36,062 nt of DNA, taken from positions 1 through 36,062 of the forward strand of contig CALLFZ010000013.1 of NCBI GenBank assembly GCA_938010045.1, read 5' to 3'. The notes below the pieces were generated by a model. It saw nothing but the letters and a program-made list of their open reading frames with translations. It ran no database searches and was not told the DNA's origin. Below, in pieces: positions 4,815 to 20,316 of the stretch; position 1 is the first letter of the stretch, and each line of letters opens with the position of its first letter. The translations under genes and the position numbers were made by a program. This DNA comes from an uncultured bacterium (lineage in GTDB: Bacteria > Verrucomicrobiota > Kiritimatiellia > PWTM01).

Positions 4815-6503
4815 GCCCGACCGCCCTCGGCGGCGTGTGCGATGGTGGGTCGCGATCGGCCTGGCCGCGTTCGCGGGCGCCGCCGGCCTCTGGCTGCGGA
4901 GCAGATCCCCGACCCCCACCGTCGAGGAACCGTACTTCGTCGCGCAGCGCGGTCCCCTGCGAATCAGCATCAATGAGTCCGGCAGCATTCAGAGCCGCGA
5001 ACGCGTCGTCATCCGCAGCGAGGTCGAGGGCCGGCGCACCATCCTCTCGCTCGTGGACGAGGGCAAATATGTTCACCGCGGGGATCTGCTCGTGGAACTC
5101 GATTCCAGCGGTCTGGAAGAAAACCGCATGGAACAGCAGATCCGGGTCGAGAACATGGAGGCCCAGTGGATCCAGGCGCGCGAAAACCTGCTCATCGTGA
5201 GCAATGCCGCTCAGGCCTCGATTGAAGACGCGGAGCTCGCGCTGCGGTTTGCGAAACTCGAGAAAGAAAAATTTGAAAAAGCGGAGTACGCGCAGCAATT
5301 CCAGCAGGTGCAGGGCGACATCTCGATCGCGTTGGAGGAACTTCAGCGCGCGCGCGACAAGCTCGACTGGTCACGGCGTCTCATGGACCAGGGCTATTTG
5401 ACCCGCACCGAGTTTCAGGCCGACGACCTCGCCGCGAAGCGAGCGCAGCTCAACCTTGAGCTTGCGCAGGGGAAGCTACATATCCTCACAAACTACACCT
5501 ATTCCCAGACGATCGAACGGCTCAACCGCGAGATTACGAAGGCCGAGATGGCGCTCGCGCGGGCCAAGCTGCGCGCCGCCGCGGACATCACTCAGGCGCT
5601 CGCGGCCGCCCGCGCCGCGGAATCGGAATACCAGCGCCAGCGCGACAAGCTCGATCGCACGCTGGAACTGATTCGGAAGTGCCGAATCGTCGCCCCCTCC
5701 GACGGCATGGTCGTGTACGCCACGACCGTCTCGGAACGGCGGTGGATGCAGGAGCCGCTGCGGCCGGGCGTCGACGTGGTGGAGCGGCAGGAACTGATCT
5801 ATCTGCCCGCGACGAAAGAGATGATGGCCGTCGTTCAACTGCCCGAGTCCAGTTTGTCCAAGCTCCGCGAGGGACTGCCCGCCCACATCACTCTCAGCGC
5901 TCTGCCCGGCCGCACCTTCCGTGGTCACGTGGAGCGCATCGCCATCCTGCCGAATTCGAGTCAAAGCTGGCTCAATCCCGACATTAAGGTGTACGACTGC
6001 AACGTCTGGATCGATGAAGACACCGAGGGGCTGCGCCCGGGCATGACCTGCCGCGTCGAGATCGTGATCGAAGAATACGAAGACGTGGTGTACGTCCCCG
6101 TTCAGTGCGTGTTGCGGGTCGCGGGGCGGCCCACCGTATATGTGTTGAGCGGCGGCCGGGCCGTGCCGCGGACTGTTGAGACCGGCTTAGACAACAACCG
6201 GATGATCTGCATCATCCGTGGTCTTGAGGCCGGCGAGCGGGTTCTCCTGGCCCCGCCGATTCCTCCTTCCGAGGCAGAGGTCGGGTCTACAGGGGCGCCA
6301 CCCGTGACCGCGGCGGGTGAGGCCATGACGAACCGGCCGCCGTCCTGGCCCGGCAACCACGATATGGAGCGCTCCGAGGGCACTCCGCGCGGCGATCGTC
6401 CCTCGCGGCGCGATGGTCCTGCCCGCGAACGAAGCGGGCGTCTGCCGCACGCCCAGGACGGCAGTGGCCCGCGCCGCCCGTCTGCGCTGGCCCCCGGCCC
6501 GCC

Positions 6504-6507
<4 letters not shown>
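4798..6507 (+). CDS. HlyD/MacA-type periplasmic membrane fusion protein
   Basis: Adapter linking the MacB-type inner-membrane transporter to the TolC-type channel. The start at 4798 is chosen because GGAGG lies 6 bases upstream; an in-frame ATG at 4762 lacks this. The 569-residue product has an Arg-rich N-terminus and one membrane helix (VRWWVAIGLAAFAGAAGLWL). Next comes the first half of a lipoyl/barrel-sandwich domain (SGSIQSRERVVIRSEVEG). A very long coiled-coil hairpin of about 200 residues, rich in Glu, Ala, Gln and Arg, follows. The second lipoyl half is marked by RIVAPSDGMVVY, followed by beta-barrel and membrane-proximal domains. The last 65 or so residues are a hydrophilic Pro/Arg/Gly-rich tail with no family equivalent that I know. 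The gene overlaps both neighbours. The length of the coiled coil suggests it spans a wide periplasmic gap. Confidence 0.88.
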
Positions 6508-7222
<715 letters not shown>

Positions 7223-7226
<4 letters not shown>

Positions 7227-8488
7227 TCCTGATTGGCCTGGCTCGGAACCTGCGGCTTGGGATCAAGGACATTCTTCTGCACAAAACCCGCTCCCTGCTG
7301 ACCACGCTGGGCATCGTGTTCGGCGTCGGCAGTGTCATTGCGATGCTGGCCGTGGGCGAGGGTGCCAGCCAAGAGGCGCTGAACGAAATCCGAAAGGTCG
7401 GGAGCCGCAACATCATCATCCAATCCCAAAAGGACGTGGACGAGGAGGCCTCCTCGCGCCGCTACATCCGGATGAGCGTGTATGGCCTCAAATATGACGA
7501 CGCCGAGCGCATCCGCGAGCTGGGCCGCGCGATCCGCCGCATCGTGCCCGTCCGGCTGATGCGGCGTGACGGCATGCTCGGAACCCGGCGCATGGAGCTT
7601 CGCGTGGTGGCCACGCACCCCGCCTGGTTCGAGCTGGTGCCCCGCCGGATCGTCGCCGGCCGGGTGCTGCGCGAAAACGACGCCCGCCAGTTTGCGCGGG
7701 TCTGCGTGCTCACCGAAACCGGTGCCCGCCGGCTGCTCGCCGGCGAACACGTGATCGGCGAGAAGATCCAAATCGGCAACCAGTTTTTCGAGGTGATCGG
7801 CATCGTCGAGAGCGGCGTGAGCGGCCGCAACATCGCCGTGCCCGACGAAGAGGTCGACGCCTACGTCCCCATGAACGTCCAGCTCCAATTGTTTGGTGAA
7901 ATCAACGCGCGCATCACCTCCGGAAGTCGCGATATGGAGAAGGTTGAGCTGCATCAAATTCTGGTCGAGATCGAACGGGACGAGATGGTTGAGCCGATGG
8001 CTCGCGCGATCGAGGCCATGCTGCGCGCCTTTCATCCTCGGAAGGACTACAAAATGAGCGTGCCACTGGCGCTACTGCGGCAGGCGGAACGCACAAAGCG
8101 CACCTTCAACATCGTGCTTGGATCGATTGCGGGCATCAGCCTGCTGGTGGGCGGCATCGGCATCATGAACATCATGCTGGCCTCGGTGACCGAGCGGACC
8201 CGTGAAATCGGTGTGCGCCGCGCGATCGGGGCGCGTCGCAGCCAGATCATCCAGCAGTTTCTCATCGAGACGATGGTGCTCTCCGGCGTCGGCGGCATCA
8301 TTGGCATCGCGGTCGGCATTCTGATCCCTCTGCTCATCACGCGGTTCAGCGGCATGCCGACCGTCGTGCCGCTGTACAGCTTGGCGCTCTCGTTGGGCAT
8401 CAGCGTGACGATCGGTCTGATCTTCGGTCTCTACCCGGCGGTGCGCGCCGCACGGCTCGATCCGATTGTTGCCCTCCGCCACGAGTGA
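7223..8488 (+). CDS. MacB/FtsX-type ABC transporter permease
   Basis: Inner-membrane partner of the preceding ATPase, with the start overlapping its stop by 4 bases. The 421-residue product has the MacB layout: one N-terminal membrane helix (TLGIVFGVGSVIAMLAVGEG), a periplasmic MacB_PCD domain of about 230 residues, and three C-terminal helices. The region before and within the first C-terminal helix carries the family segment LVGGIGIMNIMLASVTERTR. EIGVRRAIGARRSQI follows, and the last helix ends in GLYPAVRAARLDPIVALRHE. All are hallmarks of MacB permeases. Unlike E. coli MacB, the ATPase and permease are separate proteins here. The operon ends with this gene. The cargo could be a macrolide, a lipopeptide or an own secondary metabolite; the sequence does not decide. 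Confidence 0.92.
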
Positions 8489-8788
8489 GCGAGCGCCACA
8501 TGGCCCCGCGCTCCCGCACGGCCGCCCAATCAAGGGCACCCTCAATCCCGATGATGCCTCCTCGCGTTGGACAAGCATCGCGCCGCAACGTCCAACGCTT
8601 GGACGACAACACCGGCCGATGCTCTGCCGGCGTTCGGCGCTGCCTCGCCGCCATCAGAGACCGCGCCAACGAACGCGTCAGAGCGATGCGACGGGCTGAT
8701 CCGGCTTGCGACGCTGGCGGCTCGCCTCCACAATGCGCGCCCGCACGGCGTTTCGTGCTCGTCGCCGTCGTGCGAGGTTGCCCCGTTA
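8489..8788. other. Intergenic stretch before lysA
   Basis: 300 bases without a recognisable gene. The frame of lysA stays open upstream to an ATG at 8567, but the translated stretch is Ala/Thr/Pro/Arg-rich and does not match the family, so it is treated as untranslated. I see no clear terminator for the efflux operon. Confidence 0.5.
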
Positions 8789-10063
8789 ATGTCGGATTCC
8801 ATCGTCTGGCGGAATGGCGAGTTGTGGATTGAGGACGTTCCAGCGGCCCGTCTGGCGGCCGAACATGGGACACCCCTGTATGTCTACAGCCGCCGACACA
8901 TTGAGCAGCAGTTCCGCCGTCTTCAATCCGCGCTGTCCGAGTTGCAGCCGACCATTCACTTCGCGTTGAAGGCGAACGGGAACCTGGCGATCACGCGCCT
9001 GCTGGCCCGTCTGGGCGCCGGGGCGGACATCGTCTCGGGCGGAGAGCTCGATATCGCTCTACGCGCCGGCGTGGCCCCGGACCGGCTCGTTTTCGCCGGA
9101 GTCGGAAAAACGCGGGCCGAAATCGAGGCGGCGCTCCGCGCCGGCATTGGGATCTTCATCGTGGAATCGGAGCCCGAGCTCGCCCGCATCTCGGCCTGCG
9201 CCGTCGCGCTCGGCCGCACCGCCCGAGTGGCGATTCGTGTGAACCCGGACGTGGATCCCAAGACCCACGTCTACACCACGACGGGACGCCGCGAAACGAA
9301 ATTCGGGGTAGACCTGGAGCGGGCCGCCCGCGTCTTTGAACTGGCCGCATCGCTGCCGGCCCTCGAAATCGCAGGGCTTCACATGCATCTGGGCTCGCCC
9401 CTCGCCGACGAACAACCATACGCCGAGGCCCTCGACAAGGTCGCGCCGCTGTGTCGCCGACTTTCGGAACGGCACCCGACATTTCGCGTGCTCGATCTGG
9501 GTGGCGGTTTTGGCATTCCCTACCGGCCCCGCCAGCCCGAGTTCCCTCTCGATGCCTTCGCCGCTGCGATCATTCCGCGCGTGCGGGCCCTCGGGTTGCG
9601 GCTCGCGATTGAGCCGGGCCGATTCCTCCTCGGCAATGCGTGCGTGCTCCTCGCGACGGTGCAGTACATCAAAGACAATCCTTTTCGCCAGTTTGTGATT
9701 CTCGATGCTGGCATGAACGATCTGATCCGCCCGCCGCTCTATGGAGCGTGGCACGACATCCGCCCAGTTCGTCCGCGCGCCGGCGAACGCATCCATGTCG
9801 ACGTGGTCGGGCCGATCTGCGAGTCCGGCGACTTTCTCGGCAAGGACCGGCGGCTGCCGCCGCTCGAGGAGGGCGACCTGCTCGCGATCTTCGGCACCGG
9901 CGCGTATGGAATGGCGATGGCCTCCAACTATAACGGCCGCGGCCGCGCCGCCGAGATTCTGGTGGATGGCGCACGCGCGGGCGTCATCCGCGCACGCGAG
10001 GGAGTCGAAGACCTTGTCCGCCCGATGCGGATCCCGGAGTGGCTGGACGCGCCGCCGTCGTGA
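8789..10063 (+). CDS. lysA: Diaminopimelate decarboxylase
   Basis: PLP-dependent enzyme that decarboxylates meso-diaminopimelate to L-lysine, the last step of lysine synthesis, in the cytoplasm. From the ATG at 8789 (MSDSIVWRNG) the protein is 424 residues, typical of the family. The alanine-racemase-type barrel carries the PLP Lys at residue 61 (HFALKANGN), HMHLGS, the phosphate-binding Gly-rich LGGGFGIPY, and EPGR. The C-terminal beta domain has the active-site CESGDFLG. An in-frame ATG 74 codons upstream exists, but the added residues are low complexity and lack family similarity. It stands alone between the efflux operon and a convergent gene, so it is probably transcribed from its own promoter. 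No dapF or dapA neighbour is seen. Confidence 0.93.
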   Translation: MSDSIVWRNGELWIEDVPAARLAAEHGTPLYVYSRRHIEQQFRRLQSALSELQPTIHFALKANGNLAITRLLARLGAGADIVSGGELDIALRAGVAPDRLVFAGVGKTRAEIEAALRAGIGIFIVESEPELARISACAVALGRTARVAIRVNPDVDPKTHVYTTTGRRETKFGVDLERAARVFELAASLPALEIAGLHMHLGSPLADEQPYAEALDKVAPLCRRLSERHPTFRVLDLGGGFGIPYRPRQPEFPLDAFAAAIIPRVRALGLRLAIEPGRFLLGNACVLLATVQYIKDNPFRQFVILDAGMNDLIRPPLYGAWHDIRPVRPRAGERIHVDVVGPICESGDFLGKDRRLPPLEEGDLLAIFGTGAYGMAMASNYNGRGRAAEILVDGARAGVIRAREGVEDLVRPMRIPEWLDAPPS

Positions 10064-12608: not shown

Positions 12609-14423
12609 ATGACGGATATCGGACATGCGGTTCGGCAGATTTGTGCGGTGTACCACAACGATGCGTCGCGGTTGATGGACATCATCGAAGCGGTGCAGAG
12701 TCGCTACGGATGCGTCTCGAGCGAGGCCATGAATTTGATTGCTCAGGCGCTGGGCATCCCCAGAGTGGAAGTGCACAGCACCGTTTCGTTCTACTCCTTC
12801 CTCTCCAACCGACCCAAGGGGCGCGTGATCATCCGCCTGTGCAGTGATCCGATCGATGAGATGTTCGGCATGCTGCCGGTGGCAAACACGTTCGAAGAGA
12901 CGCTCGGCGTCCACGTGGGCGAGACGACCGCCGACGGCGCGATCACTCTCGAATGGACACCGTGCATTGGCATGTCGGACCAGGCGCCGGCGGCGCTCAT
13001 CAACGACGTGGTCGTGACGTACTTGTCCACGGACAAGGCGCGCGAGATCGTCGCGGAGCTTCGCCGCAGCGGCGATCCGCGCAAGCTGGTGCACCGGCTC
13101 GGCGACGGTCACAACGCCCATCCGCTCGTGCGCGCGATGGTGCACAACAATATCCGCCGAAAGGGGCCCGTGGTGCTGGCCGACCTGCCGCCGGGCGCCG
13201 CGTTGCGAAAGGCCCTCGCGATGAGCCCCATCGAGGTCATCCGCGACATCAAGACCTCGCGTCTGCGCGGCCGTGGCGGAGCTGGATTCCCCACCGGCAT
13301 GAAGTGGGAGTTCACACGTCAGGCCGAGGGCGCGCGGAAGTTCGTCATCTGTAATGCCGACGAGGGCGAACCCGGGACGTTTAAGGACCGAGTGATTCTC
13401 ACTGAGTACGCCGATCTGATGTTCGAAGGCATGACGATTGCCGGCTACGCGATCGGCGCGAAGGAAGGCATCCTCTACCTGCGTGGCGAATACGCCTATC
13501 TCCGGCCGCTGCTTGAACACATCCTGCAGGTGCGTCGCGATGCGGGACTGCTCGGCCGCGACATCTGCGGCAAACGAGGGTTCGAATTCGACATTCGCAT
13601 TCAGTTGGGCGCGGGCGCCTATGTATGTGGCGAAGAGACCTCACTGCTCAGCTCTTGCGAGGGACGGCGAGGCGACCCCAAGAACCGGCCGCCCTTCCCC
13701 GCTCAGAAGGGCTACCTTGGCTGCCCCACCTCGGTGAACAACGTCGAGACGTTCTGCTGCGTCGCACGAATTCTTGATCGCGGGCCAGGCTGGTTCGCGG
13801 AGATCGGATCGAAGGGCAGCCCGGGTACCAAGCTCTTTAGCGTCAGCGGTGACTGCGCCGCGCCCGGCGTGTACGAATATCCGTTCGGCATCACGCTGGC
13901 CGAACTGCTGCGCGATGTCGGCGCCGAGGACGTCCAGGCCGTGCAGGTCGGGGGCCCCTCCGGCCAGCTCGTCGGGCCCGACAGTTTCGGGCGCCGCCTC
14001 GAATACGACGATCTGGCCACTGGCGGCTCGATCATGATTTTCAATTCTTCGCGAGACCTGGTCCACATCGTCCGCAAGTTCTTGGAGTTTTTCGCCGATG
14101 AGAGCTGCGGCTACTGCACGCCCTGCCGTGTTGGCAACGTGTTGCTTCTGCGGAAGATCGAAGAGATTCTGCACGACCGTGGCAGCCCCGATGACCTCCA
14201 CTATCTCGAGGAGCTGTCCGCCACCGTGAAATTCGCCAGCCGCTGCGGCTTAGGCCAAACCTCACCCAACACTGTGCTCTCGCTGTTGCGCAATTTCCCC
14301 GAGGTGCTGAAGCGCCGCCTCAAACCGCCGGCGGGGGAGTTCCTCGCGACCTTCGATATCCGCGCGGCTCTCGCCGACACCGAGCGGCTCGTCGGCCGCT
14401 CGTCGGTCATGTACGCGCCCTGA
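12609..14423 (+). CDS. hoxF: NAD-reducing [NiFe]-hydrogenase diaphorase subunit HoxF (NuoE-NuoF fusion)
   Basis: Flavin and iron-sulfur subunit that transfers electrons to and from NAD(H). At 604 residues it matches the size of the fused HoxF of Ralstonia-type soluble hydrogenases. Residues 1-150 are a NuoE-like thioredoxin-fold domain. Residues 180-560 are NuoF-like, with the NAD/FMN motifs RGRGGAGFPTG (220-230), CNADEGEPGTFKDR (248-261) and GAGAYVCGEETSLL (334-347), and the [4Fe-4S] ligands Cys500, Cys503, Cys506 and Cys546. In the NuoE-like part only two of the four canonical [2Fe-2S] cysteines remain: Cys78 and Cys119. The expected partners are Asp83 and Ser123. A good ribosome-binding site precedes the ATG. 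It is the first gene of the hox operon, with 15 bases to hoxU. Confidence 0.95.
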   Translation: MTDIGHAVRQICAVYHNDASRLMDIIEAVQSRYGCVSSEAMNLIAQALGIPRVEVHSTVSFYSFLSNRPKGRVIIRLCSDPIDEMFGMLPVANTFEETLGVHVGETTADGAITLEWTPCIGMSDQAPAALINDVVVTYLSTDKAREIVAELRRSGDPRKLVHRLGDGHNAHPLVRAMVHNNIRRKGPVVLADLPPGAALRKALAMSPIEVIRDIKTSRLRGRGGAGFPTGMKWEFTRQAEGARKFVICNADEGEPGTFKDRVILTEYADLMFEGMTIAGYAIGAKEGILYLRGEYAYLRPLLEHILQVRRDAGLLGRDICGKRGFEFDIRIQLGAGAYVCGEETSLLSSCEGRRGDPKNRPPFPAQKGYLGCPTSVNNVETFCCVARILDRGPGWFAEIGSKGSPGTKLFSVSGDCAAPGVYEYPFGITLAELLRDVGAEDVQAVQVGGPSGQLVGPDSFGRRLEYDDLATGGSIMIFNSSRDLVHIVRKFLEFFADESCGYCTPCRVGNVLLLRKIEEILHDRGSPDDLHYLEELSATVKFASRCGLGQTSPNTVLSLLRNFPEVLKRRLKPPAGEFLATFDIRAALADTERLVGRSSVMYAP

Positions 14424-14438
14424 AGAAAGGAACCGCCC

Positions 14439-15158
14439 ATGAGCGAAACGATCGGGTTCACAATTGACGGACGGCCCGTACGGGCCCGACCCGGGCAAAC
14501 GATTCTCGAAGCTGCCGACGCGGCGGGCATCTACATCCCGCGGCTCTGCGCGCACCGCGAGCTGCACCCCTTCGGCGCGTGCCGGGTCTGCACCGTGAAG
14601 GTCAATGGCCGCCCACAAGCTGCCTGTACGATGCCCGCCGCCGAAGGTATGGTCGTCGAAAGCAACACGCCGGAGCTCACCGAGCACCGCCGTCGTCTGA
14701 TCGAGATGCTGTTCGTCGAGGGCAACCATTACTGCATGTTCTGTGAGAAGAGCGGCAACTGTGAACTGCAAGCTCTGGCTTACCGATTCGGCATCACCGC
14801 ACCGCGCTATCCCTATCTCTTCCCGAACCGCGATGTGGACGCTTCGCACCCCGATGTGCTGCTCGACCGCAACCGTTGTGTGCTCTGCGCCCGCTGTGTG
14901 CGGGCCTCGCAGCAGCTCGACGGCAAGAACGTCTTCCAGTTCGTCGGCCGCGGCGCGAACAAAACACTCTGGGTGAACGCCGAACGCGAGCTGGCCGACA
15001 CCAACCTCGACGTCCGCGACCGGGCCGTCGATGTCTGCCCCGTCGGCTGCATTCTGCGCAAGCGCCAGGGCTACACGATCCCGATCGGCCGACGCCGCTA
15101 CGATCACGAGCCCATTGGCTCCGACATCGAACGCGCCGGCGCCGCTAGGGGCGCCTGA
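14439..15158 (+). CDS. hoxU: [NiFe]-hydrogenase diaphorase subunit HoxU
   Basis: Electron-wiring subunit between HoxF and HoxY, homologous to the N-terminal part of NuoG. The 239-residue protein has a [2Fe-2S] plant-ferredoxin-like domain with Cys37, Cys48, Cys51 and Cys63. A His-ligated cluster motif follows, with His97, Cys99, Cys102 and Cys108 (NHYCMFCEKSGNC, written from residue 96). A [4Fe-4S] site has Cys147, Cys150 and Cys153 (RCVLCARC), with later ligand candidates Cys200 and Cys204 (DVCPVGC). The length and cluster set agree with HoxU of group 3d hydrogenases. AAGGAA sits about 9 bases ahead of the start. The C-terminal end (ERAGAARGA) is short and variable. The gene lies between hoxF and hoxY in the standard order F-U-Y-H. 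Confidence 0.95.
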   Translation: MSETIGFTIDGRPVRARPGQTILEAADAAGIYIPRLCAHRELHPFGACRVCTVKVNGRPQAACTMPAAEGMVVESNTPELTEHRRRLIEMLFVEGNHYCMFCEKSGNCELQALAYRFGITAPRYPYLFPNRDVDASHPDVLLDRNRCVLCARCVRASQQLDGKNVFQFVGRGANKTLWVNAERELADTNLDVRDRAVDVCPVGCILRKRQGYTIPIGRRRYDHEPIGSDIERAGAARGA

Positions 15159-15176: not shown

Positions 15177-15725
15177 ATGTCCTCGAAACCCCGCATCGCC
15201 ACCTGTTCACTCGCCGGCTGCTTCGGCTGCCACATGTCGATCCTCGACATCGACGAGCGCATCCTGCAGCTCATCGAGCTCGTGGACTTCGACAAGTCGC
15301 CAATTGACGACCTCAAGCACTTCACGGGCCGCTGCGCGATCGGCCTCGTCGAGGGCGGCTGCTGCAATGAGGAGAACGTGCACGTCCTCCAGGAATTCCG
15401 CCGGCATTGCGACATCCTCGTCTCTGTCGGCGAGTGCGCGATCTGCGGCGGCATTCCCGCGATGCGCAACAACATCCCCTTGAAGGAGTGCATGGACGAG
15501 GCGTACCGCAACGGGCCCACCGTCTACAACCCCTCGGGCGTGCTGCCGAACGATACCGCGCTGCCGCTGGTGCTGGACCGTGTCTACCCATGCCACGAGG
15601 TCGTCAAGATCGACTACCACATCCAGGGCTGCCCGCCGCCGGCCGATGCGATTTGGCAGACGCTCGTGGCGCTGCTGAACAACCGGCCGGTCGAGCTTCC
15701 CTACGAGGTACTGAAGTACGACTGA
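15177..15725 (+). CDS. hoxY: [NiFe]-hydrogenase small subunit HoxY
   Basis: Small subunit that carries the [4Fe-4S] cluster next to the NiFe site. The 182-residue protein is short, as expected for HoxY of bidirectional hydrogenases, and lacks a Tat signal, so it stays in the cytoplasm. Cluster ligand candidates are Cys15 and Cys18 in LAGCFGCHMS, Cys87 or Cys90 in GECAICGGIP, and Cys152 in IQGCPPPAD; these motifs match the family. An additional Cys-rich segment, GGCCNEEN (60-67), is also typical. AAAGGAG precedes the ATG. There are 18 bases after hoxU and 15 before hoxH, so the subunits are made in step. Confidence 0.95.
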   Translation: MSSKPRIATCSLAGCFGCHMSILDIDERILQLIELVDFDKSPIDDLKHFTGRCAIGLVEGGCCNEENVHVLQEFRRHCDILVSVGECAICGGIPAMRNNIPLKECMDEAYRNGPTVYNPSGVLPNDTALPLVLDRVYPCHEVVKIDYHIQGCPPPADAIWQTLVALLNNRPVELPYEVLKYD

Positions 15726-15740
15726 CTTCGGAGATCCGCG

Positions 15741-17186
15741 ATGAGCACATCCATCCGCACCCAAACGATCGTCATCGAGCCGGTCACACGCGTCGAGGGA
15801 CACGGCAAGGTCACCATCCAGGTCGACGAGCAACGCCGTGTCCGCCAGGCCCGGCTGCACATCGTCGAGTTCCGGGGGTTTGAGCGTTTCATCCAGGGCC
15901 GTCCCTTCTGGGAGGTTCCGGTGCTCGTGCAGCGGTTGTGCGGCATCTGCCCCGTTAGCCATCACCTCGCGGCGGCGAAGGCGATGGATCTCATCGTCGG
16001 CGCGCCCCACCTCACGCCCACCGCCGAGAAAATGCGACGACTGATGCACTATGGCCAGATGCTGCAATCACACGCGCTGCACTTTTTCCACCTCTGTTCG
16101 CCCGATTTCCTCTTCGGGTTCGATGCCGACCCGGCCGTGCGCAACATCATCGGCGTCGCCAAACGGTTCCCGGAGCTCGCCGTGCAGGGCGTGATGCTGC
16201 GCAAATACGGCCAGGAAGTCATCAAGGCGACCGCCGGCAAGAAGATTCACGGCACTGGCGCGATCCCCGGCGGCGTGAACAAGAACCTCTCGATCGCGGA
16301 ACGCGATGCGCTGCTGAAAGACCTCGATCAAATTATGACGTGGTCGGAGGGGGCGCTGGCGCTGGCGCGCGACATCACCCTGAAGCACCTCGATGAGCTC
16401 GCCGGCTTCGGTTCGTTCGAGTCGAACCACCTGTCGCTGGTGCGCGGCGACGGCGCGATGGATTTCTATCACGGCAACCTCTGCGCCATCGACGCGAAGG
16501 GCCGGCCGATCTTCGACCAAGTGGACTACCAGCGCTACCTCGACTACATCGCCGAGGAGGTGCGGCCTTGGTCCTACATGAAGTTCCCCTTCATCCGCTC
16601 GCTCGGGCCCGAGACCGGCTGGTACCGCGTCGGACCGCTCGCGCGCGTGAACCTTTGCCGCTTCATCCCCACGCCGAACGCCGAGACCGCGAGGAAGGAA
16701 TTCTTCGAGGCGACCGGCGGCCGTCCGAACAACATGACGATGGCCTACCACTGGGCCCGCATGATCGAGCTGCTGCACGCAGCCGAGGTGATCCGCGACC
16801 TGCTGCATGACCCGGACCTGCAGGGCACGGACCTTGTCGTGCGCGGCGAGCGCCGCGCCGAGGCGGTCGGTCTCATCGAGGCGCCACGCGGCACGCTCGT
16901 CCACCACTACGTCGTGAACGAGCGCGACCAGGTGGTTCGCTGCAACCTCATCGTCTCGACCACCAACAACAACACGCCGATGAACCGCGCGGTCGAGCGC
17001 GTCGCCGAGCAGTACCTGAACGGCGTCGAGATCACCGAGGGGCTATTGAACCGCATCGAGGTCGCGATCCGCGCGTACGATCCGTGCCTCTCCTGCGCGA
17101 CGCACGCGCTCGGCCAAATGCCGCTGATCGTCGAGATCGTTGGGCCCGACGGCGCGGTGCTCGCCCGCCGCACGCGCGACGCTTAA
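15741..17186 (+). CDS. hoxH: [NiFe]-hydrogenase large subunit HoxH
   Basis: Catalytic subunit that splits or forms H2 at a NiFe(CN)2CO site. The nickel ligands are Cys67 and Cys70 in the L1 motif RLCGICPVSHH, and Cys449 and Cys452 in the L2 motif DPCLSCATHALGQMPL. The family start RVEGHGKVTI is present at 17-26. The length of 481 residues fits HoxH of group 3d. The roughly 25 residues after THA at the C-terminus form the peptide removed by the maturation protease encoded next. The context (F-U-Y-H plus HoxW) and the motifs indicate the bidirectional NAD-linked type rather than F420- or ferredoxin-linked relatives. Genes for NiFe cofactor assembly (hypABCDEF) are not in this window and must be elsewhere. 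Confidence 0.96.
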   Translation: MSTSIRTQTIVIEPVTRVEGHGKVTIQVDEQRRVRQARLHIVEFRGFERFIQGRPFWEVPVLVQRLCGICPVSHHLAAAKAMDLIVGAPHLTPTAEKMRRLMHYGQMLQSHALHFFHLCSPDFLFGFDADPAVRNIIGVAKRFPELAVQGVMLRKYGQEVIKATAGKKIHGTGAIPGGVNKNLSIAERDALLKDLDQIMTWSEGALALARDITLKHLDELAGFGSFESNHLSLVRGDGAMDFYHGNLCAIDAKGRPIFDQVDYQRYLDYIAEEVRPWSYMKFPFIRSLGPETGWYRVGPLARVNLCRFIPTPNAETARKEFFEATGGRPNNMTMAYHWARMIELLHAAEVIRDLLHDPDLQGTDLVVRGERRAEAVGLIEAPRGTLVHHYVVNERDQVVRCNLIVSTTNNNTPMNRAVERVAEQYLNGVEITEGLLNRIEVAIRAYDPCLSCATHALGQMPLIVEIVGPDGAVLARRTRDA

Positions 17187-17201: not shown

Positions 17202-17705
17202 ATGACGCGCCGCGTACTCGTGATCGGCTACGGCAATCCCGGCCGCCTCGATGACGGGCTGGGGCCAGCTTGCGCCGACGCCCTCCGTGAGCGCGAGATC
17301 CCAGGCGTAACCGTCGACAGCGACTACCAGCTGACCGTCGAGGATTCCGCGGCCGCGGCCGCGCACGATACGGTGGTGTTCGTGGACGCCGCGCTCGACG
17401 GCCCCGAACCGTTCGCCTGGAGCCCCACGCCGGCGGCCAGCGTGGCGGGCATCGGGACGCACACGCTCGACCCGGGAGCCGTGATCGAGCTGGCTCACAG
17501 CGCCTTTGGCGCGCATCCGGAGGGCTGGATGCTCGCCATTCGCGGGTACGAGTTCGACGAGTTCGGCGAGCGCCTCTCGCCCGCCGCCCAGAAAAATCTT
17601 GACGCGGCCCTTGAGTTCCTCGACTCTTGGCTGCGCGCGGAGGTCGCACGAGCACCCGGCGCGACGCCTCCGGAAGGCGGGAAGGACAGGAAGGAGACGC
17701 GATGA
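17202..17705 (+). CDS. hoxW: HoxH C-terminal maturation protease (HoxW/HyaD family)
   Basis: Hydrogenase-specific endopeptidase that trims the C-terminus of HoxH after nickel insertion. The family motif GYGNPGRLDDGLGP (9-22) contains the metal-binding acidic pair Asp17/Asp18. Asp62 (VFVDAALDG) and His87 (THTLDP) correspond to the other nickel ligands in this fold. The protein is 167 residues, typical for the family, with a hydrophilic Gly/Lys/Arg-rich C-terminal tail beyond the domain. The gene starts 15 bases after hoxH, and its stop overlaps the start of the receiver gene by 4 bases. Assignment to HoxH rather than to another hydrogenase follows from position. Confidence 0.92.
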   Translation: MTRRVLVIGYGNPGRLDDGLGPACADALREREIPGVTVDSDYQLTVEDSAAAAAHDTVVFVDAALDGPEPFAWSPTPAASVAGIGTHTLDPGAVIELAHSAFGAHPEGWMLAIRGYEFDEFGERLSPAAQKNLDAALEFLDSWLRAEVARAPGATPPEGGKDRKETR

Positions 17706-18088
17706 AAGACGGCAAGTTCGTGATCCTTTACGTGGACGACGATCAGGATTATCTCGACACAGTCCGCGCAATCCTCGAATCCGCCGGCTATCTCATGGTC
17801 GAGGCGCACTCCGCCGAGGAGGGACTCAAGGTCTACAAGGCTCACCAGCCTGACCTGATTCTGCTCGACCTTATGATGGAGGAGGTCGACTCCGGCACGG
17901 GCATGATCAAGGAGCTGCGGCTGCTCAACAACAGCGCGCCGATCTACCTGCTCAGTTCTGCGGGCGACCAACTCAACATGGTCACTAGCTACGCAGACCT
18001 CGGCCTCGCCGGCATCTTCCAGAAGCCCGTGGACCCCAAAGTCCTCCTCCACACCATCGGGGAGCGTCTCGGGAAGCACACCGGCTGA
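17702..18088 (+). CDS. Stand-alone CheY-like response-regulator receiver, hox operon
   Basis: A 128-residue single-domain receiver with all phosphotransfer residues: the acidic pocket Asp12-Asp14 (YVDDDQD), phospho-acceptor Asp56 (LLDLMM), Ser85/Ser86 on strand 4 and Lys108 (FQKPVD). The loop after the acceptor (EEVDSGTG) is longer than in CheY. No output domain is attached. The ATG at 17702 has an AAGGAG site 7 bases before it and overlaps the hoxW stop (ATGA), so it is translated with the hydrogenase genes. A longer frame with an upstream ATG at 17627 only overlaps hoxW and is not needed. No histidine kinase is in the window. It may act by protein-protein contact; a link to hydrogenase function or localisation is inference from the operon. 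Confidence 0.88.
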   Translation: MKDGKFVILYVDDDQDYLDTVRAILESAGYLMVEAHSAEEGLKVYKAHQPDLILLDLMMEEVDSGTGMIKELRLLNNSAPIYLLSSAGDQLNMVTSYADLGLAGIFQKPVDPKVLLHTIGERLGKHTG

Positions 18089-18093
18089 CTGCC

Positions 18094-19134
18094 ATGCGCG
18101 GCGGCAACATCGGTCGACCGCGGATCCTCACGGCCGCCCTCCTGGCAGGGGCGGCGGCGATCTTGACCGCACGCTCGGGTGATCCCGCCGATTCGCGCGA
18201 ACCGCTGCGCCGACAGTTCCTCTCGTGGCGGTTCGGCATGTTCCTCCACTTCAACATCGCCACCTTCAACGAGCGCGAGTGGGCGAACGGCCACGAGGAC
18301 CCTGCGAGTTTCGCGCCGACCGACCTGGACTGCGCTCAGTGGGCCGAGGCAGCCGCCGTCGCGGGCATGCGCTATGCTGTCCTCACTGTCAAGCACACCG
18401 GCGGCTGGTGCCTGTGGCCCACCGAACTCACACGCAGCCACAACGTCCGTGCCTTTCGCAACTTCCGCGAAGGTCGCGGCGATCTCGTGCGCGAGTTCGT
18501 GGAGGCCTTCCGCGCGCGCGGCATCCGCATCGGCTTCTATTACTGCTTCCCTGGCGACTACACCGGCCGCAACGGCAACCCTCCGCTTGCCGACGGACAA
18601 ACCGACTTGCACGGGTTGCCACCCGAGGCAGCCGGCGATTTCGTCGGCTTCATCCGCCGCCAACTGACGGAACTGCTCACATGGTACGGCCCGGTGGACC
18701 TCCTATGGATCGACCAGTTTTCGAATCGGTATACCGGCCGTCAGTGGCTCGAGATTCTCGCCCACATCCGCGCGCTGCAATCGAACTGCATCGTGGTCGC
18801 GAATAATTCGCGCAACCTCCGCGAAACTGATGTGCACAGTTACGAATACCCTTGGCTGGCCGTCCGCAAGCCCGAGCAGGCATTGCCCCCGGCGACAAAC
18901 ACGGTTGCCGCGGAAGTATCCGACAAACTGGGCCCCGGCTGGTTTTGGAATTCTCGTGAGACGGCCGCGACGATCAAAACGCCTGAGCAGATCGTCTCGA
19001 TGGTGCGGCTCTGCAACTCAAGGAATGCGAACTACCTCTTGAATGTGGCGCCGGACCGCACGGGACGTATTCCCGATTACTCCGTTCGTTGCCTGCGTCG
19101 CGTTGGCGAGCTTCTTCGCGAGCCCCCTCCTTGA
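18094..19134 (+). CDS. Secreted GH29 alpha-L-fucosidase
   Basis: Glycoside hydrolase expected to release L-fucose from fucosylated glycans. The N-terminus has a basic segment and a hydrophobic stretch (ILTAALLAGAAAIL), so it is probably exported. The barrel shows GH29 motifs: RFGMFLHFNIATF (46-58), AVLTVKHTGGWCLWPT (95-110), GIRIGFYYC (143-151), and the putative nucleophile Asp207 in VDLLWIDQF. The C-terminal part has NYLLNVAPDRTGRIPD, a segment conserved in the family. At 346 residues it is compact and lacks the C-terminal beta-sandwich of many GH29 enzymes. It starts 5 bases after the receiver gene and has no strong ribosome-binding site, so it may be co-translated with the operon. A functional tie to the hydrogenase is not obvious. 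Confidence 0.85.
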   Translation: MRGGNIGRPRILTAALLAGAAAILTARSGDPADSREPLRRQFLSWRFGMFLHFNIATFNEREWANGHEDPASFAPTDLDCAQWAEAAAVAGMRYAVLTVKHTGGWCLWPTELTRSHNVRAFRNFREGRGDLVREFVEAFRARGIRIGFYYCFPGDYTGRNGNPPLADGQTDLHGLPPEAAGDFVGFIRRQLTELLTWYGPVDLLWIDQFSNRYTGRQWLEILAHIRALQSNCIVVANNSRNLRETDVHSYEYPWLAVRKPEQALPPATNTVAAEVSDKLGPGWFWNSRETAATIKTPEQIVSMVRLCNSRNANYLLNVAPDRTGRIPDYSVRCLRRVGELLREPPP

Positions 19135-19310: not shown

Positions 19311-20142
19311 GTGCCTGTTCCCAAGAGAGCATCCGCCATCCTTCCACGCCGCAAACGCCGACCTCGCTGCTCGCGGCCACCGGCACGGAGTCGTTCGACA
19401 CCAATCTTGGCCCCCAATAGACCAGTAGTCACAGTACATTGAAAGCGAACATGTTGCTTCGTCTGCGCTTATGCCTGCCCCCCCGGGGGGCCGTGGCATC
19501 GGGCTGGGGACAGGACTGGGGACAGGCACCTGGCACCCCTGGCACCCTCCGGCAACCCCCTTTGGTTTCCTGCGCCCAATGCGCCCAGAGTGGTGCCGGT
19601 CCCTACGACAGTCCCTACGACAGACTCCAAGGCGCCTGACGCGAGGCGACGATCGCCGAGTGCCCGGTCGAGAGCACGTGTCTGTCCCCCCTCAGCCACG
19701 TCCTCATCCGCCCCCATCAGCCGTCCCGATCAGCCATTGCGCAATGGCCTGCCCCCACTCAGAGATCGGGGACAGGCACGGGTTCGAAAGCAGCTCCCCG
19801 ACCGCCTCGCTCGGCTCGATACCTGTCGGCCGCCGTATCTGGCGTGGCGAAAACGGCGGCGGGAATGCGAGCCGATTGCGCTGTCGGGGATGAACGGTAC
19901 ATCAAAGCGTCGGCAAAGAGTGGGCTTCCCATCCTCTGTCCCCAGATTCCGCTCCCCACCTCGCGCGTGTGCCCGCCCCCATCCTCTGTCCGCAGCGTTG
20001 CAGCTGGCGCGGCGCTGTGCTGTAGCTCCGACGCTCTGCTGTAGCTCCGGCGCTCCGCCGCCGGAGCTTTCTCGCCCCAGATCTTCCGCCGGGGGACCGG
20101 CGGAACTACAGCAGCCGTTAGATCCCGCGTGTGCCTGTCCCC
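19311..20142. repeat. Scattered copies of a GTGCCTGTCCCC / GGGGACAGGCAC motif
   Basis: Exact or one-to-two-mismatch copies occur at 19311-19322 (GTGCCTGTTCCC), 19506-19514, 19518-19530, 19678-19689 (GTGTCTGTCCCC), 19768-19779, 19935-19942 (partial) and 20131-20142. They face both ways. The same motif recurs about eight times at 35595-35980. Such short palindrome-flanking repeats are typical of REP sequences, which are spread by RAYT-type transposases; no such transposase gene is visible in the window. Confidence 0.75.
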
Positions 20143-20258
20143 ATCCTCGCTGGCGCGGCGCTGTGCTGTAGCTCCGACGCTCTGCTGTAGCTCCGGCGCT
20201 CTGTCGCCGGAGCTTTCTCGCCCCAGATCTTCCGCCGGGGGACCGGCGGAACTACAGC
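20004..20258. repeat. Tandem duplication of a 146-base palindromic repeat unit
   Basis: The 109-base segment 20004-20112 recurs at 20150-20258 with two mismatches, an offset of 146 bases. Each copy has CTGTAGCTCCG-type arms, two hairpins and a closing CTACAG. The spacer between copies contains a GTGCCTGTCCCC motif. A third partial copy of the right hairpin with ACTACAGCG follows at about 20262-20289. Confidence 0.85.
20036..20114. repeat. REP-like double hairpin bounded by CTGCTGTAG / CTACAGCAG
   Basis: The outer arms CTGCTGTAG (20036-20044) and CTACAGCAG (20106-20114) are exact inverted repeats. Between them is hairpin 1, GCTCCGGCG / CGCCGGAGC (20044-20052 and 20059-20067, loop of 6). Hairpin 2 is TTCCGCCGG / CCGGCGGAA (20084-20092 and 20097-20105, loop GGGA). 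The whole resembles a BIME: two palindromes with a short linker. Confidence 0.8.
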
Positions 20259-20268
20259 GCTGCCGCCG

Positions 20269-20316
20269 GGGGACCGGCGGAACTACAGCGGCCGTTAGAG
20301 GGCCGGGTTCCACCCC
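20269..20316 (+). repeat. Conserved repeat flank, inverted copy at 36013-36062
   Basis: The segment contains GGACCGGCGGAACTACAG, then GGCCGTTAGAGGG and GGGTTCCACCCC. The reverse complement of the last 50 bases of the window matches it with only a few mismatches. The match extends beyond the hairpin, so the two loci share a longer ancestral unit. Confidence 0.75.

Follow-up and report, generated by a model that had tools for sequence, protein, structure and literature searches.

A conserved stand-alone receiver at the end of NAD-linked [NiFe]-hydrogenase operons and its candidate histidine kinases

Background

Whether a cell produces H2 or uses it up is decided by NAD-linked hydrogenases of the class studied here. 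To our knowledge, apart from transcription, little is understood of how such enzymes perceive the moment to switch. Two-component control of hydrogenase is known from the hydrogen-sensing HoxJ-HoxA (HupT-HupR) systems, where HoxA binds DNA through its output domain and acts together with a regulatory hydrogenase. Single-domain response regulators, among them CheY, Spo0F and DivK, are stand-alone receivers with all the phosphotransfer residues, and such receivers often relay phosphate, as Spo0F does. In Cupriavidus necator the hoxI gene presumably follows hoxW; HoxI belongs to another protein family than the receivers, and its likeness to the receiver reported here is a functional and positional analogy only. 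A passage of PMC3702609 describes HoxI of the C. necator soluble hydrogenase as a small accessory subunit that is bound to the diaphorase and acts as the site of activation by NADPH.

The receiver analysed in this work is likewise stand-alone, with all the phosphotransfer residues, and its structural matches include DivK, Spo0F and CheY, but unlike these it is encoded within a hydrogenase operon and overlaps one of its genes. Two-component control is what it would have in common with HoxJ-HoxA, whereas here the receiver lacks an output domain and the sensors of the kinases are of other kinds.

Results

The operon and its terminal gene

The window, that is the whole stretch of 36,062 nucleotides analysed from genome G000, carries a group 3d-type operon in the order fused HoxE-HoxF, HoxU, HoxY, HoxH, HoxW and receiver. 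Its features are as follows.

12609..14423, + strand: hoxFE, fused 2Fe-2S thioredoxin-like (HoxE) and FMN/NADH (HoxF) subunit (PF01257, PF01512 and PF10589)
14439..15158, + strand: hoxU, diaphorase Fe-S subunit (top NCBIfam match the HoxU model, 207 bits, under the cut-off of 333)
15177..15725, + strand: hoxY, small subunit (PF01058)
15741..17186, + strand: hoxH, [NiFe] large subunit (closest solved structure 5xf9, NAD-reducing hydrogenase, E=2e-174)
17202..17705, + strand: hoxW, hydrogenase maturation protease (TIGR00072, 63.9 bits against a cut-off of 47.45)
17702..17705, + strand: ATGA shared by the hoxW stop and the receiver start (genes overlapping in 28 of 75 related loci)
17702..18088, + strand: receiver, 128 aa, terminal gene of the hox operon (Pfam, alignment, AlphaFold2 model)
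17735..17740, + strand: codons D12-D13, acidic metal pocket (alignment of 81 sequences)
17867..17896, + strand: codons D56 (phospho-acceptor) to G65, signature D-L-M-M-E-E-V-D-S-G
18023..18025, + strand: codon K108, invariant, inside Q-K-P (alignment of 81 sequences)

The assignment to the group 3d NAD-linked [NiFe]-hydrogenases follows from the matches of HoxH (5xf9 at 584 bits, above 7t2r at 517 and Mvh at 396) and from the diaphorase genes, with no formal classifier behind it. The receiver gene runs from the ATG at 17702 to the stop codon at 18086-18088, and the overlap of four bases given in the preliminary description of this DNA is exact, hoxW ending in the ATGA at which the receiver starts; this overlap suggests translational coupling of the two genes.

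Five bases past the receiver starts an alpha-L-fucosidase-like gene (18094-19134; PF01120, GH29-like), which recurs beside the receiver in G001 and not in the corresponding regions of G002, G006, G007 and G038. Further downstream, positions 20003-20299 contain two 110-nt direct repeats that are 98% alike, with a spacing of 146 and G+C-rich inverted repeats, as well as three copies of a shorter, 45-nt element.

The receiver protein and its signature

Residues 8-119 match Response_reg (PF00072, E=1.1e-20), no second domain being found above the Pfam cut-off, and the residues expected of a receiver (D12/D13, D56, S85 and K108) are all there. AlphaFold2 predicts a single receiver fold (mean pLDDT 84.6, pTM 0.83), weakest at residues 91-100 (mean pLDDT 58), for which the best Foldseek match is the PhoP receiver 1mvo. 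A DNA-binding output of the HoxA type was found neither by Pfam nor in this model, and the protein is thus a single-domain response regulator; the 80 relatives described below are 123-132 aa long. A complete set of phosphotransfer residues without an output domain had been proposed from the sequence, and Pfam, the alignment and the AlphaFold2 model agree with this.

When the window receiver was aligned with the best 80 of 301 relatives, D13, D56 and K108 were invariant in all 81 sequences, position 12 being D in 78 and E in 3 and position 85 being S in 79 and T in 2. Also fixed in 81 of 81 were P50, the rest of D56-L-M-M-E60, D63, G65, P80, G88, G104 and the remainder of Q107-K-P109, together with M1 and A35. 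The loop EEVDSGTG, noted earlier as unusual, does differ from that of the other stand-alone receiver of G000 (one extra residue, and E in place of P), but D-L-M-M-E...D.G is present in 81 of 81 proteins, and the loop called odd therefore defines the receiver family as its signature.

Conservation of the receiver beside hox

Contigs were scanned with a profile of eight receivers (six of them hox-linked), and the best 80 of the 301 relatives obtained were kept, hox linkage not being a criterion of selection. This set overlaps the related genomes discussed below (L088-L092 are G002, G006, G007, G008 and G005, L093 is G212 and L126 is G134). In 75 of these best 80 loci the receiver directly follows hoxW and shares its strand, and as far as the contig extends hoxH, hoxY, hoxU and hoxFE lie upstream of hoxW. 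Of these 75 gene pairs 28 overlap, 15 of them by exactly 4 bases, and the median spacing is 10 bases. Conservation of this gene order reaches well past the genus: by the record titles, some of which may err for MAGs, the linked loci come from Lentisphaerae, Kiritimatiellae, Planctomycetota, Acidobacteria, Bacteroidetes, Ignavibacteria, Deltaproteobacteria, Myxococcota, Omnitrophota, Spirochaetes, Krumholzibacteriota and Poribacteria. The preliminary description had staked its reading beforehand on the same receiver standing beside hox in related genomes, and on this point it is borne out.

The five exceptions are L091 (G008), L092 (G005), L101, L153 and L167. HoxH was not found in the genome of L101, and that of L153 has a 73% identical HoxH elsewhere. 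In L167 a NuoE-F fusion and a formate-dehydrogenase-like gene run divergently from a 56% identical receiver, and the best HoxH match of the genome is 42%. This cluster (5210-9375), in which the formate-dehydrogenase-like frame ends at 365 aa, had been considered an [FeFe]-hydrogenase cluster, a reading rejected on re-examination.

In a set of 97 genomes that includes G000, a close receiver (E<1e-30) was present in eight, each of which belongs to the 15 genomes that hold a close HoxH (E<1e-180), and in none of the other 82; at 1e-12 receiver matches extended to 34 of the 97 genomes, those beyond the eight being weaker and mostly in longer frames. The receiver stands behind hoxW in G000, G001, G002, G006, G007 and G038, and on a contig apart from hox in G005 and G008, which counts against the reading favoured below. 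At the threshold used, seven of the 15 close-HoxH genomes have no receiver, their HoxH being 76-78% (G091, G047, G056) or 66-68% (G051, G040, G077, G013) identical.

Within the window's phylum 10 of 288 genomes contain the receiver, and no relatives were found in viral contigs. Among 294 Planctomycetota genomes, the centre genome G326 included, 10 contain a group-3d-like HoxH and 9 the receiver, and in 7 cases the two are neighbours; at the other three HoxH loci the receiver is cut by the contig end (G615), the contig ends inside hoxW (G486), or the receiver is truly missing (G579). A short contig of G372 holds receiver, hoxW and a partial hoxH, and G488 has a 43% identical receiver with no hox nearby (L271:1999-6429). 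As the seven close-HoxH genomes and G579 have no adjacent receiver, the protein is not essential to hox.

For the 60 loci with all six proteins, the receiver distances correlate with those of HoxFE (r=0.693), HoxH (0.630), HoxU (0.578), HoxW (0.570) and HoxY (0.542), and with the pooled Hox core at r=0.723, a value reached by 0 of 2000 permutations. Among themselves the Hox subunits F, U, Y and H give r of 0.62-0.76, and HoxW, a maturation protease, gives similar values against them (0.56-0.67). These values show co-inheritance of the receiver with Hox and not binding.

Kinases near the receiver

No kinase is encoded on the window's contig, and in this local sense the receiver is partnerless, as had been noted; yet in 15 of 66 loci a HATPase kinase lies within 400 bases behind it, and in 5 of 52 one lies within 900 bases before hoxFE. 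Counted over all loci the figure is 16 of 71 (truncated L159 included), which for an assumed background of 1% corresponds to 2e-17. At least five sensor architectures occur among the receiver-adjacent kinases. Ten are one homologous family, in which the N-terminal part is membrane-like and a GG-x-x-SPF-like motif occurs that may resemble the quinone site of RegB; two of the ten have a sub-threshold likeness to a PilS-like six-helix domain. The others include GAF kinases (L094, L096), sCache_3_3-HAMP kinases (L093, L110), a GAF kinase with an extra N-terminal part (L137) and a flavoprotein fusion (L100).

A midpoint-rooted tree was made of 60 kinase domains, those not of G000 all being sampled from hydrogenase loci; five G000 ATPase matches whose domains were short or weak were left out, as was truncated L159. 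In this tree 17 of the 18 kinases within 1.2 kb sit in one 32-row clade (95/90), which holds just 2 of the 21 distinct G000 kinases. The same clade contains the kinases before hoxFE in L093, L113, L125 and L145 and a GAF kinase and an sCache kinase of NADH-dependent [FeFe]-hydrogenase clusters (L084, L087). Outside it are L145_9697, 325 bases behind the receiver and retained in the counts, and the kinase before hoxFE in L127. At L082, a hox locus with no receiver, the adjacent kinase has its own receiver and its ten best matches lie outside the clade. A hydrogenase-linked kinase family seems to drive the receiver. The preliminary description had suggested looking for a hybrid kinase lacking a receiver; from these gene neighbourhoods the likely partners are instead ordinary HisKA-HATPase kinases with varied sensors, represented in G000 by the flavoprotein-rhodanese fusion described below.

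That the receiver is an ordinary passenger, a generic protein travelling with the operon and having no hydrogenase function, would fit the hox operons that have none and the two relatives in which it is unlinked. The linkage at 75 of 80 loci, the fixed signature and the one-clade kinases alongside make this very improbable.

Among 114 open frames that begin no more than 1.5 kb behind the receiver (66 loci, at most two long frames per locus), Pfam identified the kinase ATPase HATPase_c in 16, HypF in 10 and a Rex-type DNA-binding domain in 2, the last being the sole DNA-binding family with at least two matches. Rex-like repressor genes occur in 6 of the 80 loci, five of them near hox (L099, L110, L118, L123, L165), and therefore transcriptional redox control exists beside the receiver in some loci. 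Their positions are behind the receiver in L110, L118 and L165 and before hoxFE in L099, L110 and L123. These genes, and the fact that relaying is common among known single-domain receivers, speak for a receiver that passes phosphate in the manner of Spo0F or binds a distant DNA-binding regulator, controlling hydrogenase synthesis and not activity. Such a transcriptional relay is nevertheless rather unlikely: the frames behind the receiver show no recurrent DNA-binding family save the Rex type, the receiver stays coupled to the enzyme genes across many lineages, and in G005 the gene behind the kinases encodes two receiver domains with no DNA-binding domain above threshold, for which reason its reading as NtrC-like was rejected. 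The earlier view that the absence of an attached DNA-binding regulator points to control at the protein level remains the best reading, with the qualification that Rex-type frames do occur behind the receiver.

A flavoprotein-rhodanese fusion kinase

The best candidate kinase of G000 would be a fusion (G000:C26:21159-23591) of HisKA, HATPase_c, Pyr_redox_2 with its dimerisation domain, and rhodanese. Residues 255-803 match NoxA-3 (6pfz), 3nta, 3icr and 8a56 over the Pyr_redox and rhodanese parts. With the CoA-disulfide reductase 3icr, the CoA-persulfide reductase 8a56 and 3nta it has these two parts and the redox Cys in common, but it bears in addition an N-terminal HisKA-HATPase, and although it belongs by its domains with the CoA-disulfide reductases plus rhodanese, its NCBIfam equivalog score of 396.7 is below the cut-off of 578.8. 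In 22 of 22 fusions the kinase boxes (HisKA His, N, G1, G2), which make them histidine kinases, the FAD motif and the redox Cys are intact, and the rhodanese Cys is intact in 21 of 22.

Full-length fusions are present in 9 of the 97 genomes (G000-G003, G005-G008 and G015), and among the 15 close-HoxH genomes in 7 of the 8 with the receiver and in none of the 7 without it. In the 288 phylum genomes, searched with three candidates scored per genome, 8 have the full fusion and all 8 carry the receiver, a separate family (G132 and G134) included; the co-occurrence has a hypergeometric probability of 4e-14, or 2e-9 by genus, two families carrying the signal and kinship being ignored. A further 14 matches in these 288 genomes start near residue 250 with no kinase part aligned, and their genomes have no receiver. 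Elsewhere the full fusion was found in 1 of 294 Planctomycetota genomes, that one with the receiver, and in 13 of 42 genomes searched among those of the 80 loci. The receiver occurs without a full fusion in G038 and G212, the latter having two kinases beside hox, and G003, a genome 68% complete, has the fusion and neither HoxH nor receiver. G015 was rejected as a case of fusion without hox, its 4.6 kb contig ending in a 62% identical hoxFE.

Gene calls around several loci were crude longest-frame picks, and the fusion-kinase neighbours used as evidence were rechecked. Hydrogenase genes stand beside the fusion kinase in 8 of the 22 loci examined: hoxFE (L250, L252), hypB/hypA (L251), hypC/hypD (L256), hypE/hypB (L259), a [NiFe] large subunit and protease (L257), HydF/HydE (L241) and the hox receiver itself (L100). 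In L100 the fusion is the convergent neighbour of the receiver and sister to the G000 fusion (100/96). The L252 fusion, separated from hoxFE by two small frames, has one internal stop and may be broken or mis-sequenced. At L257:7694-9095 the large subunit, a further [NiFe] protein, has VhuA as best model, below cut-off. In G134 a single contig holds both receiver and fusion, and the 12 kb that separate them include an [FeFe]-hydrogenase cluster as well as genes for HydG-like, HydE and HydF proteins. The G000 fusion is on another contig than hox, with no hox or hyp gene beside it.

A protein of about 94-108 aa is encoded after the fusion in G000, G001, G002 and G003, and in G006 after a CBS-domain gene; that of G000 (L202:3853-4137, 94 aa, directly behind the fusion) is of the CPF_0552 family and weakly TM1266-like ('iron-only hydrogenase system regulator'). 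A PAS kinase follows the fusion in G005 and G008, and in G005 the protein with two receiver domains comes next; the output of the fusion may therefore branch.

The other G000 kinase of the hydrogenase clade is a receiver-kinase on C32, directly preceded by a Fe_hyd_lg_C-FeS-HisKA-HATPase kinase (the pair at L203:4376-8205). Were this sensory [FeFe]-hydrogenase-like kinase, the adjoining receiver-kinase, or both, the partner of the receiver, H2 would be the signal. L126 and L161 contain similar kinase pairs that enclose a small receiver of their own, which is missing in G000, and the 43% identical receiver of G488 stands beside an sCache kinase and a receiver-kinase. In the sampled loci, though, it is the fusion (L100) and not the C32 type that directly adjoins a hox-linked receiver, and we regard the C32 kinases as an unlikely source of the input. 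Phosphotransfer from the C26 fusion kinase to the receiver, as read from the genomic evidence, is reasonably probable.

Receivers in other NADH-linked contexts

Related receivers lie beside NuoE/F-like genes of NADH-dependent [FeFe]-hydrogenases (L084, L085, L087). These clusters resemble the hox loci in their receivers (about 30-34% identical), in their NuoE/NuoF-like genes and in their kinases of the same clade, the hydrogenases being of group A6; they differ in hydrogenase type and in the loop, which is for example MMQAADDG or MMDTNTEG and not MMEEVDSG. Tandem stand-alone receivers with the loop MMxxxxxG are found by the [FeFe]-hydrogenase genes at L085:2629-3495 and L087:6487-7294. A receiver-NuoE fusion suspected in L087 from overlapping matches was rejected, the two being in different frames.

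These contexts bear on whether the receiver could be a maturation or assembly factor that works with HoxW and the Hyp proteins, its phosphorylation perhaps gating nickel insertion or proteolysis. The position directly behind hoxW, the HypF-like frames that are second commonest behind the receiver (10 of 114) and the fusion kinase by hypA, hypB, hypC, hypD or hypE in three genomes would all agree with such a role. It is unlikely all the same, given that 7 of 15 close-HoxH genomes manage without the receiver, that similar receivers accompany NADH-dependent [FeFe]-hydrogenases, which use maturases other than those of [NiFe] enzymes, and that the 56% identical receiver of L167 is beside a formate-dehydrogenase-like cluster, its genome offering no HoxH match better than 42%.

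Discussion

The receiver as the output of a Hox-dedicated two-component system, its phosphorylated form acting on the enzyme and probably on the diaphorase, is a reading to which we give an even chance. A job on the hydrogenase itself is suggested because the output is constant, the kinases are exchangeable and the genes are coupled to those of the enzyme. In such a system a kinase of the hydrogenase-associated clade would phosphorylate D56. Since the fusion of G000 joins a part resembling NAD(P)H-dependent CoA-disulfide/persulfide reductases to a rhodanese, its proposed input is NAD(P)H and the thiol or persulfide redox state. As the receiver has no output domain, we propose that its phosphorylated form acts by binding a protein.

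The binding partner would most likely be the HoxFE-HoxU diaphorase, and the bound phospho-receiver might tune the activity or direction of the enzyme to the redox state. Docking at the diaphorase is proposed because the Hox, [FeFe] and formate-dehydrogenase-like contexts share a NuoE/F/G-like NADH module; that the receiver targets the enzyme at this site is a hypothesis we hold at slightly less than even probability. HoxI illustrates that an accessory subunit on the diaphorase can set activity, and we extend this to the receiver by way of hypothesis. The fullest version, which we offer tentatively, is that the receiver is a regulatory subunit docked on HoxFE-HoxU which, depending on whether it is phosphorylated, controls the passage of electrons between H2 and NAD(H) under lineage-specific kinases of one clade. 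These exchangeable kinases would be membrane, Cache or GAF proteins, or the flavoprotein-rhodanese fusion reading NAD(P)H and persulfide state.

Conclusions

No published report of a hox-linked receiver or of the kinase fusion was found in the open-licence literature, judged by titles and the beginnings of abstracts. The protein is of a known kind, a single-domain response regulator, and what is new is probably its kind of client. If the proposed action on the enzyme is true, the [FeFe] and formate-dehydrogenase-like contexts would point to a common control of enzymes with a NuoE/F/G-type NADH module. Moreover, a phospho-switch encoded with the enzyme, together with a kinase that can be named and whose sensor is an NAD(P)H/persulfide-type enzyme of its own, would connect H2 metabolism to the redox state of the cell in many uncultured lineages, in a way open to testing.
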